Shown: piece by piece, positions 14,500 through 35,400 of the stretch
Layout of the letters: each line of letters starts with the position of its first letter
Position numbering within the stretch: the stretch's first letter is position 1
Assembly: GCA_030062745.1 (NCBI GenBank)
Contig: CP099840.1
Coordinates: 620,001 to 684,000 of the forward strand
Direction of reading: 5' to 3'
Source of the DNA: Capitulum mitella
Taxonomy: Eukaryota; Arthropoda; Thecostraca; Pollicipedomorpha; Pollicipedidae
DNA: 64,000 bases
Program-made: the position numbers and the translations under genes
Notes under the pieces: model-generated
What the model was told of the DNA's origin: nothing
Databases searched by the model: none
The model's input: only the letters and a program-made list of their open reading frames with translations

Positions 14500-17400
14500 G
14501 TATGTAATATCTATTAATTCGTGGTGCCACGTTAATTTTTTAACGTTTCATGAAAAATTCGTCTCGGGAACCCAGGGGTCACGAGAGTTAACCGTGACCT
14601 CTGGAATCGACCATCGTGTTAAGGCTATTGTGACATGAGTAATCTTCAATTTTCATCCATGTGTTATGACTGCGCGTATCCCAAGTCGTACAGTCGTTTC
14701 TTCTGGGGACGGGCGCCGTCGGTCGCCCTGTTGGCTCCGAGGTTGGCCTGATCGTTCCGGGTCCAATATGGTGACCAAATCGTGCAGAAAGGATGCATGC
14801 TACGGCTTTGGTTGCGTCAGTCGGCGGGCAAGAGTCCAAAGCCAAAGGTGGCGTCGGTAAGGCTTACTTTTCCTCTCGTTCCGCCGCATACTTAGCCTTG
14901 CCGACTTGGGCGTACTTCTGGCGGTCCCTTCGACCAATAGGAGGCGGCGTGGTATCAGTGGGTGGGGCTTGCGCGGCGGATGACTACCAAATAGTCATAG
15001 TGTTGGACAACGATTTGCGGATGATGAAGATGTGATGAATGTCACAAAGTTTTGCGGTCCATGGCATACATGTGGACGTTCTCGCGTGACCAGAGCTTCT
15101 TACATCCGATTTTGGTCTACAGATGCCGATTTTGTCTCGCTTGCTTTCCTCATGTTAATGGTAATAAAGATGGTAATCCATTCTACAAGTGTTCAAGTTC
15201 TTGGTATTACTGGACACCGACGCATTTTAGGCAGCGCAAAAACCCACAATGCGCCTATGAAATAAGAGGCCTTGGGATATGAAAAGCATGGCTGGCGATC
15301 CTGAGGGGTTGGGAGGGGTCCAGACCCCTAATATTTAGGGAATTTTAACTGGGCCCATGACAGTAACCGGAAAAGCGGTCTGAAGTCCTGTGTGAACCTT
15401 CAATAATTTTCGGAAATCTCCAGCTATGGTGAAAAGTATATAGCGAACCAAGTGTAGGATAGTACCCTTTGTGTTACATTTGAAGCTCGGTTGCGCCCCC
15501 TGTTGAAGCCAACAAGATCAGTGTTTTCGTTTTCTCAAGCTTAGGTGCAAGTTTGCGAAATGCTACAGTCAGAAGCGCGACATCGATTACAGAATGTACT
15601 TTTGGAATGAAAATTTTATTCGCGTAAAAATGAAAAGCGCAAGCCCAATTGCTCCAAAATTCGCTCTGGCATTTTCATTCAGATTTCTGTACATAAATTG
15701 GACGCAAATGTAGGATTGAATATATCATGGATATTGAATGTGTTAAATATGTCACGCATTTAAACGTATACTGCGTTGGTTTCAGAATTTTCGACGTCAC
15801 CTGTAGGTAATGTATGTACGTTCAAGCGACCTGTTCTTATTCGTCTCCGCGGCATTTTTGTGCTCTACCCGGGAAATTCTTTATCATATATCCGTCAAAA
15901 TGTTGACTGGGTTTTGTAAAGTCGTTGATGGTAGTCAGGCACACTTTATTTCAACGCAAGCCAGTCTTTACACGCGTGCCACTCGCCCCCCATTGGGCTG
16001 TAAGACCATCGGACTGCCGATACCCACGGTCTCCGCGGGCAACGCGCGGATATCCCCCCATGAAGCTTTGCGGGCGTCTTCACTCCTTTACGTCGTAGCT
16101 TTTTTTGGTCAAGTTTCGTCGATATGTGTTGAATGGTCGTAAGAGGCAGAACTGATGTTTTTAACCCATGTCATTGTTGACAGCCGGTTCGATCATCATT
16201 TGTAAACAGAACTGTGTACTTCATAGCGAAAGTTTTTTCGGACCTACACATCGCACGTCGCTTCTGAATTTGTCCCTAGGAGGTGTTTTCTTGTCTTGGC
16301 TTAATTTCGAGGTGACATAGAACGTAGAAGATGGTCTCTGAGGTGAAAATGCCAGTTAATTTGAAATCAGGACAACCTTCTATTTTGAGATCTGGTGGTA
16401 GATCAATTTTCACCGGACCAGACGAGACCAAATCAGACCAGACAAATGTAGTTGGATATGAAGTACAGTTTAACGTAGCTTTAACACTGGTTAAAAATTC
16501 CCAACCCGGAAAACATGGTGATGTGCATTTATCCTTCCTGCATGTTGACCCGTAACAGATGAAGCTAAAAGCCGGCTGTTGCGTGTAGCAATCCCGCCTT
16601 GGCCCTCGTTGGGCTGTGCCCAGTTCGTGAAGCAGATCCGCGCACTTGGATCGTGTACGGCACACCCAGACGGGCGTGCCGGTCATGGCAGCCGTTGCTC
16701 CCCGTGGCGGTCGGCGAAGTGGGCGGGCGCGCGGCGGGCGGGCTGACCGGTGCTGACGCGGCCAGGACCGGCTGCACCCGCACATCGGCGGCCAGACGCT
16801 GCTGCGGATGTGCGGCAACCTGCTGCCGCTGCTGGACCGGCTGGCGCCGAGCGGCGTAGCCGGCGTCCAGTCGCTGCTGGGCGCCGGCTCCAGTTCTGCG
16901 CTCCGCACCGAGCCAGGTCAGTCCGGGGCACGAAGCCAAGTCAGTCTGGGGCGCGGACGTCAGGGCGGAGTTTTCTGACACCAGGACCGAGCCAGTCCAA
17001 TCCGGGGTACGGGAGTCCGATCCAGGTCAGTCTAAGGTCAAGGTCAGAGCAGTATGTTCTGAAGCCAGGGCCGAACCAGGTCAGTCGGAGGTACGAGGTC
17101 AGAGCGATGTCCTGTGAGCCCAGAATCGAGGCAGGTCTGCCCAGATTTAGAGGAGTCGGGTCGGTGCTCTGTGGTGTCCTCATGAGCTAGGACCGAGCCA
17201 GGGCACTACAGGGGCTCAGAGCTCACGGATGAGTTGACAACGTACTTTCCAGCGGGAACCATCTCATTTCATCTGGTTACCCGTGTGCCCTGCTGTGTCT
17301 CATTGAACACTGCACATGACTGCCTCTGTGACTGAAGAGGTCTTGCGCCCTCCGTCGAGAGACGAGCCCCCACAGCGGACTTGACCCCCGCCGACCCGGT

Positions 17401-32400: not shown

Positions 32401-35400
32401 GTTTTACGTTGCCGACGAGTGCCGTTCATGTAAACAAAAACAAAAAAAAAAAAAAAAGAAAACGCTTGGTAAATGTTTCCAATGCTCCTTTTAGGACATC
32501 ATCGATTTCTTTGCTTTACAGATATTTGCGATGACACTGCGGCTGTCGTGCTACTTCGAGGAGCAGATGAAGCCGATCCTGACGTACTTCGTCAGCGGCC
32601 AGCGGTCGACTCGCTCCCGTCGGCGACACGCCAGCGACTCCGACCCCCAGCCCTCCTCCAGCCGACCCGGTGAGTGACCCCCAGCTGCCGTCCAGCTGAC
32701 CCGGTGAGTGACCCCCAGCCCTCCTCCAGCCGACCCGGTGAGTGACCCCCAGCCCTCCTCCAGCCGACCCGGTGAGTGACCCCCAGCCCTCCTCCAGCCG
32801 ACCCGGTGAGTGACCCCCAGCCCTCCTCCAGCCTGCCCGGTGAGTGACCCCCAGCCCTCCTCCAGCCTGCCCGGTGAGTGACCCCCAGCCCTCCTCCAGC
32901 CGACCCGTTGAGTGACCCCCAGCTGCCGTCCAGCTGACCCGGTGAGTGACCCCCAGCCCTCCTCCAGCCTGCCCGGTGAGTGACCCCCAGCCCTCCTCCA
33001 GCCGACCCGTGAGGACCCCCAGCTGCCGTCCAGCCGACCCGGTGAGTGACCCCCAGCCCTCCTCCAGCCGACCCGGTGAGTGACCCCCAGCCCTCCTCCA
33101 GCCGGCCCGGTGAGTGACCCCCAGCTGCCGTCCAGCTGACCCGGTGAGTGACCCCCAGCCCTCCTCCAGCCTGCCCGGTGAGTGACCCCCAGCCCTCCTC
33201 CAGCCGACCCGTTGAGTGACCCCCAGCTGCCGTCCAGCTGACCCGGTGAGTGACCCCCAGCCCTCCTCCAGCCTGCCCGGTGAGTGACCCCCAGCCCTCC
33301 TCCAGCCTGCCCGGTGAGTGACCCCCAGCCCCCCTCCAGCCGACCCGTTGGTGACCCCCAGCTCCGTCCAGCGACCCGGTGAGTGACCCCCAGCCCTCCT
33401 CCAGCCTGCCCGGTGAGTGACCCCCAGCCCTCCTCCAGCCGACCCGTTGGTGACCCCCAGCTGCCGTCCAGCTGACCCGGTGAGTGACCCCCAGCCCTCC
33501 TCCAGCCGACCCGGTGAGTGACCCCCAGCCCTCCTCCAGCCTGCCCGGTGAGTGACCTCCAGCCGACCCGGTGAGTGACCTCCAGCCCTCCTCCAGCCGA
33601 CCCGGTGAGTGACCCCCAGCCCTCCTCCAGCCCACCCGGTGAGTGACCCCCAGCCCTCCTCCAGCCGGCCCGGTGAGTGACCCCCAGCCCCCCTCCAGCC
33701 CGCCCGGTGAGTGACCCCCAGCCCTCCCTCCAGCCCGCCCGGTGAGTGACCCCCAGCCCCCCTCCAGCCCGCCCGGTGAGTGGCCATCAGCCGTCCTCAG
33801 GCTAGCCTGATGAGTGACCCGCAGCCTTCCTCCAACTGGCCTAATGAGTGACCTCCAGCCCTCCTCCAACCGGCGTGGTGAGTAACTCCCAGACCTCCTC
33901 CAACTGGTCCGGTGAGTGACCCCCAACCCTCCTCCAGCCGGCCTGGTGAGTGGGCTCTGAGTGCCTGTGCCAGTCGGGACGCGTGTGCTGGCGACTCTGA
34001 CTCCACCTTTTCCCCTCCTCCCCCTCCCCCCACACCAACCCGGTGAGTAGTGACCTCTGGACTCGAAGCTCACCAGTCCGTCGCCATTGGGTGCGTGCTG
34101 GAATGTCTCAGGGCTGCAGTCTACTTGTCATGGTTGGTGATGTATAGAAGCAGACGTCTTGTCTTCGTTGGCGGACTTACTGTTCATCACAGTCGGCCTG
34201 ACCGCAGGAATGGCATTTCATGTGCTCTCCACGCTGGCTGATTTTCCTACCGTGATGATGTATCCTCTCGCGGACGCGTTTTGACACACCACATGGCTGA
34301 GCGTTGTCGAGTCGTTGTCTCGGCCGCCATCGTGTGCTTACGGTTTATCACGTGGACATGTGCGCGCTCCGCAAGCGCTCCTCGCTGAGGTGCACCGTCT
34401 GCCCCGCAGGCTCCTTGCGCCATCGACCTCAGGAGGACTCGGGCCGCCGCCTGAACGGTTTTCACCGGGACTCGGAGGACTCCGGGGAGGAACGGGCGCC
34501 GGCTCGGCCCGGCCGGCAGGCGCGCGGCCGGCTCTTCCAGCCGCCGCCGCCGCCGCCGCCGCCCGCCTCCGGCCGTCTGCGCGGCCGCGCGCCCGTCTCC
34601 TACGCCGAGGACAGCGATTCATCGGCCACGCCGCTGCTGGGGCGGCGGGCGCGGCCCGGCGCGCCGGCGACCGGCCGCAGTCGAGCGCCGCCGCCGCCGC
34701 CGCCCCGGCCGCCGCTGCCGCCGCCGAGCCGCCCTCACGGCGGTCGCCACGGCCTGCAACAGCAGCGGCGCGGCGCCGTCCAACCGGAGGCCGAGGTCGA
34801 GGAGGATCAGGAGGAAGAGGAGGAAGAAGACGGCTCCAGCTCCAGCTCCAGCTCCAGCTCCAGCTCCGGGTCGGGTGAGGAGGAGGAGGAGGACGGAGAG
34901 GAGCTGGCCGAGGAGGAGGAGGAAGGTGACGAGGAGAGCGACGCCGGCGAGGCGGCGCCCGCCGTCCAGTCGGCGCCGCGGTTGCGCACGCGCGCCGCCA
35001 GGTCCAACTACGCCGTGGACGACGAGGAAGAGGAAGAGGTGGCGGCGCCGCGCGGCCGCCGCGCCGTTCGTGCGCCGTCACGTTACGGTCACGACAGCGA
35101 CTGGGACGCCGAGGCGGAGACGGCGCAGGAACCGCGCAGGACGGGCCGGGTCCGCCAGGCGCCCATCCGCTCCTGGCGAACCGTCCTCGACGAGGATGAC
35201 GAGGTGGAGGATGACGATGACGACGACGATGACTTCAAGCCGTCGCGAAAACGGTCGAGGCCCCCAAAGAAGAAGGCGAAGAAGAGACGGCGCGATGCGG
35301 ACAGTGAGGACTCTGAGGAAGAGAGGTCCACGCCGAAAAAGGTCAGGAGGCGGCCTCCGGCCGCGGATAGTGGGGACGATTTTGGCGCGTCGCGGTCTAC

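Follow-up and report, generated by a model that had tools for sequence, protein, structure and literature searches.

The 64,000-nucleotide window analysed here, positions 620001-684000 of contig C2 (CP099840.1) in the 477-Mb, 16-contig genome of the arthropod Capitulum mitella, contains a gene in which many introns carry tandem copies of their own exon borders. At least 150 scored matches to the cuticle family PF00379 in the genome bear out the arthropod source. As judged from its translation, the product belongs to the BRWD/PHIP family: Pfam identified WD40 in the protein, and the best PDB matches of the bromodomain region include chains of BRWD1 and of PH-interacting protein (PHIP), an assignment made at family level, among paralogues. 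Our exon model, numbered as in an earlier note on this DNA, covers exons 5-29, or 24 introns with 48 borders, and the open frame is held across exons 5-28. The gene and its border repeats are listed below, with array limits from Tandem Repeats Finder (TRF) where that program called one, and with the z score of the border-echo test described thereafter.

16766-36155, plus strand: BRWD/PHIP-family gene, exons 5-29 (24 introns); exon model, Pfam and PDB matches
16905-16952, plus strand: intron 5 donor array, 23-bp unit, 2.1 copies, with degenerate copies beyond; TRF, echo z 4.6
18564-18712, plus strand: intron 7 acceptor echo, degenerate, no TRF array; echo z 6.8, copy at 18564-18593
18834-18943, plus strand: intron 8 donor array, 41-bp unit, 2.7 copies; TRF, echo z 10.2
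19703-20193, plus strand: intron 9 donor array, 26/52-bp unit; TRF, echo z 14.7
21230-21848, plus strand: intron 10 acceptor array, 69-bp unit; TRF, echo z 15.7
21939-21990, plus strand: intron 11 donor duplication, ~28-bp unit, 2 copies, no TRF array; echo z 9.9
22704-22869, plus strand: intron 12 acceptor array, 86-bp unit, 1.9 copies; TRF, echo z 5.6
23387-24664, plus strand: intron 14 donor array, 71-bp unit, 17.9 copies; TRF, echo z 17.0
24806-25298, plus strand: intron 14 acceptor array, 76-bp unit, 6.5 copies; TRF, echo z 20.7
29018-29117, plus strand: intron 22 acceptor duplication, ~63-bp unit, 2 copies, no TRF array; echo z 14.1
29542-30061, plus strand: intron 23 acceptor array, 67-bp unit, last copy being the exon 24 border; TRF at 29542-29970, echo z 11.3
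32642-33952, plus strand: intron 28 donor array, 34-bp unit, 39.0 copies; TRF, echo z 16.2

Each border, taken as 20 exonic plus 20 intronic bases, was compared with the remainder of its own intron and scored against 100 dinucleotide shuffles. Twelve of the 48 borders, in 11 of the 24 introns, are echoed at z 4.6-20.7, with none of the 100 shuffles as good: 5D, 7A, 8D, 9D, 10A, 11D, 12A, 14D, 14A, 22A, 23A and 28D, where D and A denote the donor and acceptor border of the numbered intron. Six are donors and six are acceptors, and both intron ends are thus affected; the remaining 36 borders gave no echo in this test (z at most 1.9). The eleven introns that the earlier note had listed by inspection match this set exactly. 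Control 40-mers placed inside introns, outside the hand-listed arrays, exceeded z 4 in 4 of 118 cases. The affected introns cluster towards one end of the model, comprising eight of the ten introns 5-14 and three of the fourteen introns 15-28 (Fisher P 0.011).

With TRF (score at least 50, period at least 10), 12 arrays were found to overlap these introns, and eight of them include exonic bases. A ninth, 29542-29970, is homologous to the exon 24 border and was counted as border-covering on that homology rather than on its TRF coordinates. The three that do not cover a border lie at 20282, 29324 and 26056; the last of these (26056-26189) is a 63-bp unit present twice that stops 11 bases before exon 17 and excludes the exon. 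Unit lengths span 23-86 bases (11 arrays measured), and by TRF the arrays hold between 1.9 and 39.0 copies, in agreement with the range of two to nearly 40 first estimated by eye. Random placement of the units on introns and their edges would give 2.4-2.9 border-covering arrays where nine of 12 were observed (P 1.6e-5 to 1.2e-4), or 2.63 on the collapsed gene (P 6.5e-5); the preference for borders claimed in the earlier note is therefore borne out, though these P values are optimistic because the gene was chosen for the pattern.

Base composition provides one source of this preference. In 244.5 kb outside the gene, minisatellite units have a mean guanine-plus-cytosine (GC) content of 0.63 against a background of 0.52, and minisatellites per 10 kb number 5.7 at flank GC 0.60-0.65, 4.8 above 0.65, 1.8-1.9 at 0.50-0.60 and 0.44-0.61 at 0.40-0.50. 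Within the gene, GC is 0.71 in exons, 0.63-0.70 in the first 40 intron bases and 0.51-0.53 at 120-200 bases into the intron. Weighting placement by GC raises the number of border-covering arrays expected among 12 to 3.37 with a step function (P 5.8e-4), 4.54 with a log-linear dependence on flanks (P 7.1e-3) and 6.02 with a log-linear dependence on the unit (P 0.04, or 0.08 for periods of at least 25). GC accounts for part, perhaps much, of the border excess, and another part may not be GC. The earlier note had offered selection that tolerates only duplications preserving the splice site; taken alone, such selection predicts no shortage of purely intronic arrays, which would be equally tolerated. 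Since selection alone is insufficient, a GC-rich bias is needed too, under which the expectation rises to 3.4-6.0 of 12.

In six arrays the extra copies number four or more. Of these, 9D, 10A, 14A and 28D lose identity to the unit on the exon side with distance, and 14D and 23A show no such decay, so that the claim that the farthest copies are the most diverged applies to the former four and not to the latter two. The 9D array has 21 extra 26-bp copies, counting degenerate ones past 20193. Across eight arrays, the GT/AG core is kept in 84 of 100 extra copies; the working-looking splice site described in the earlier note is thus frequent without being present in every copy. Splice columns carry 0.089 mismatches against 0.133 elsewhere when the same arrays are pooled, but because copies are not independent, and because 8D, 10A and 14A (three of the eight) reverse the trend with splice columns worse kept than others, selection on these columns is unproven.

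The exonic fraction of the units lies anywhere between 0.20 and 0.88, with a mean of 0.55, compatible with a uniform distribution (Kolmogorov-Smirnov P 0.64; 11 arrays, with the shares of 11D and 22A read by eye). Because unit ends spread evenly around the junction, the duplicated segments do not appear to have been excised at the splice site itself. This speaks against mechanisms acting via spliced RNA or lariats and gives no support to the suggestion that the process starts at splice junctions. Border units are multiples of three in only 2 of 11 arrays, an absence of constraint that is expected if they are never translated. Computation of the frame indicates that use of a neighbouring copy would cause a frame shift, a stop or a missing site in 9 of 11 arrays, whereas in 10A and 14D it would stay open in frame. 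Intron 14 alone has arrays at both ends, where the units differ and no exonic segment is shared between the two. Within the intron 28 array the gene finder called ten false exons, which should serve as a warning to annotators; the same intron, with ~39 near-identical donor units, constitutes a natural experiment on spliceosome site choice.

How far the pattern extends was examined in other exons and in motif runs. In kinase and myosin genes taken without regard to arrays (37 introns), 2 of 74 borders exceeded z 4.5, and a further two reached 4.4 and 4.1. Ten of the kinase introns were picked from match pairs in different open frames; three of these ten loci, L030, L035 and L036, yielded no intron, since at least one of the two exons was missed by the gene finder, and one spurious stop-ended exon call was removed at L033. 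Other gene-finder exons yielded echoes at 5 of 137 borders (2/27 in the rest of the window, 0/39 at eight bromodomain loci and 3/71 at 20 evenly spaced 10-kb loci); of the last three, the calls at L011 and L028 overlap arrays and are doubtful as exons. When five outside echoes were aligned, the window acceptor at 50312 and the donor at L009 were convincing and those at L039 and L040 were weaker. The BRWD/PHIP-family gene is therefore an outlier, at 12/48 borders versus 2/74 and 5/137 (Fisher P 2.4e-4 and 6.3e-5), in a genome where the pattern also occurs elsewhere. Elsewhere in the window, a predicted minus-strand donor near position 3230 (~3230) is directly repeated over ~21 bases (echo z 7.0), and an array at 50320-50474 (83-bp unit, 1.9 copies) lies 8 bases away from an acceptor, that of the exon predicted on the minus strand at 50092-50312 (echo z 9.5).

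Genome-wide, runs of three motifs spaced 28-58 bases apart gave 1309 matches for the donor CAGGTRAG, 524 for the mutated CAGCTRAG and 374 for CAGTGRAG, figures that count matches rather than arrays, as one long array can yield dozens. Single occurrences in 244.5 kb were 17, 26 and 22, respectively, and the resulting 77, 20 and 17 matches per single make donor runs 3.8-4.5x commoner per occurrence. Within the initial 40.15 Mb of contig C1, a hand count of loci gave 16, 8 and 3 (binomial P 0.0066 and 3.4e-4, treating the small single counts as exact); one extra CAGCTRAG locus was omitted because it is actually a donor array, and CAGCTRAG, which can itself occur within an acceptor, is an imperfect negative control. 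At 9 of the 16 donor loci (L044, L045, L047, L049, L051, L052, L053, L056 and L057), a predicted coding exon scoring at least 30 reaches the first donor copies, the cut of 30 having been chosen after the scores were known and applied to donor-motif loci only; L055 (19.9) and L058 (24.1) are marginal and five have no exon. A Pfam scan of nine exon pieces, with L055 included and L049 left out, gave matches that pass the curated cut-off for four of them (ALMS motif, F-box, dynein D4 and CAP-Gly). The donor array at L053 (C1:4796680-4797400; 45-bp unit, with matches over ~2 kb) is open in frame through the copies seen, and distal donors there would therefore add repeats to the protein.

Reversed motifs had served as controls (CAGGTRAG 1309 vs 121; GGTGAGT 947 vs 416) and were dropped once the mutated motifs gave 524 and 374; as the latter are also frequent in runs, CAG-type motifs are common in arrays generally. 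Runs of the acceptor motif TTYCAGG, at 594 versus 153 reversed, lend weak support to acceptor arrays genome-wide, this control not being letter-matched and singles differing at 62 versus 37 in 200 kb. A random 200-kb sample showed no donor excess among all arrays (for example 2 of 56 at score at least 8, with 1.8 expected), and we therefore make no claim that minisatellites are generally phased to junctions.

The earlier note knew of no name for this arrangement, but one exists. Two papers describe lancelet "mirages", tandem duplications of intron-exon borders in Adh, globin, troponin C and PGBD5 genes (PMC3087553, PMC3902484), with PGBD5, Adh and troponin C described in like terms in the second. 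As portrayed in the first, mirages occur at either intron end, many copies retain AG/GT, the mRNA is regular, haplotypes differ in copy number and Adh3 shows somatic instability (PMC3087553). The barnacle arrays resemble them in having border-containing units at either intron end with many AG/GT kept, and in unit length, about ten to ~160 bases in lancelet mirages as there described and 23-86 here. Diverged copies are reported at the array ends in lancelets; in the barnacle gene, decay with distance is seen in 4 of 6 arrays and not in the other two. The barnacle arrays differ in belonging to another phylum, in affecting 11 of 24 tested introns of one gene and in being known from DNA sequence alone. 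Human variable tandem repeats that span exon-intron boundaries have also been described (PMC2812944); those repeats are located within the exons of genes that were duplicated recently, and they are tied to new introns and altered transcripts, unlike the conventional-looking introns of the barnacle gene. With ordinary GC-rich minisatellites our arrays share unit length, GC-rich units and, apparently, homogenised arrays with diverged ends, but not position, as 9 of 12 TRF arrays cover a border. The arrays are thus of the known mirage kind, notable for the arthropod host and the density within one gene. No arthropod report of mirages turned up in searches of one library of open-licence papers, in which insects were not searched by name; a little-known lancelet phenomenon is hereby extended to an arthropod and to genome scale.

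We favour, at a probability of roughly 0.6, the interpretation that these are mirage-type minisatellites produced by GC-biased duplication and filtered by coding selection and splicing. Segments that happened to cover a border would have been duplicated in tandem and later expanded and homogenised like other minisatellites. In the part of this genome that was sampled, minisatellites favour GC-rich DNA, which in this gene lies in the exons and at their edges. Wholly exonic duplications would shift or lengthen the protein and would mostly be lost, while border-covering ones would be almost neutral provided that the RNA is spliced at the exon-proximal site, because the other copies are spliced out with the intron. 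Low-GC intron interiors would start few arrays, and those lying against exons would remain. By analogy, the undisturbed mRNA reported for lancelet mirages (PMC3087553, PMC3902484) suggests that such copies can be harmless, and the echoes, at 12 of 48 borders, affect donors and acceptors alike. Several points weigh against this interpretation. The steepest GC weighting is an assumption, and a residue persists under all three weightings (nine of 12 observed; P 5.8e-4, 7.1e-3 and 0.04). Flank GC below 0.40 breaks the trend, with 1.67 minisatellites per 10 kb (4 arrays). The placement models predict wholly exonic duplications at 2.7-9x the number of border-covering ones, and only one wholly exonic repeat with a period above 25 was seen (66 bases, last exon), so that strong loss by selection is required. 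Finally, the gene is an outlier against 2/74 and 5/137 borders elsewhere, which GC may not explain.

That residue is what a junction-directed process would leave, in which an activity coupled to transcription or splicing would duplicate border DNA in preference to other sequence. Nine of 12 arrays covering a border against 2.4-2.9 expected, and donor runs 3.8-4.5x commoner per occurrence than those of the two mutated motifs, fit such a process, but unit ends that fall off the splice site, equal numbers of donors and acceptors (six each), the clean state of most borders in other genes and the lack of donor excess among arrays of the random 200-kb sample do not, and we regard it as unlikely. It would be similarly surprising were splice junctions true duplication hotspots in this lineage, beyond equally GC-rich DNA, and mirages a general animal signature instead of a peculiarity of lancelets. 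Extra splice sites might also be favoured by positive selection, serving as spares, decoys or regulators of intron length, which could account for the 84 of 100 intact GT/AG cores and the lower mismatch rate of splice columns (0.089 vs 0.133); we consider it improbable, given that copies are not independent, that 8D, 10A and 14A run the other way and that use of a neighbouring copy would harm the frame in most arrays.

It is very improbable that the arrays are left over from the origin of introns through an exonic AGGT segment that was duplicated in tandem. Tandem duplication does take in splice signals, and the lancelet report suggests that mirages give rise to introns, such arrays being raw material for new ones (PMC3087553); yet only intron 14 has arrays at both ends, these with differing units, and the units hold intronic sequence. 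As to repeats added or inflated by the assembler, one lancelet mirage was aberrantly assembled in a draft genome, according to the same report (PMC3087553). The copies here are nevertheless diverged, they decay with distance in four arrays, and like arrays occur at many unrelated loci, which makes a wholesale artefact very improbable, even though individual copy numbers could still be wrong from assembly.

Two further sets of repeats deserve mention. The sole long-period coding repeat in the gene, at 35436-35692 in the last exon, consists of a 66-bp unit in 3.8 copies, and the frame slips inside it, whether through an error of assembly, the presence of a small intron or a genuine change of frame. 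Outside the gene, the window contains long arrays, assigned to no border, at 54257-54871 (44 bp x 14.0) and 63038-63854 (74 bp x 11.1).

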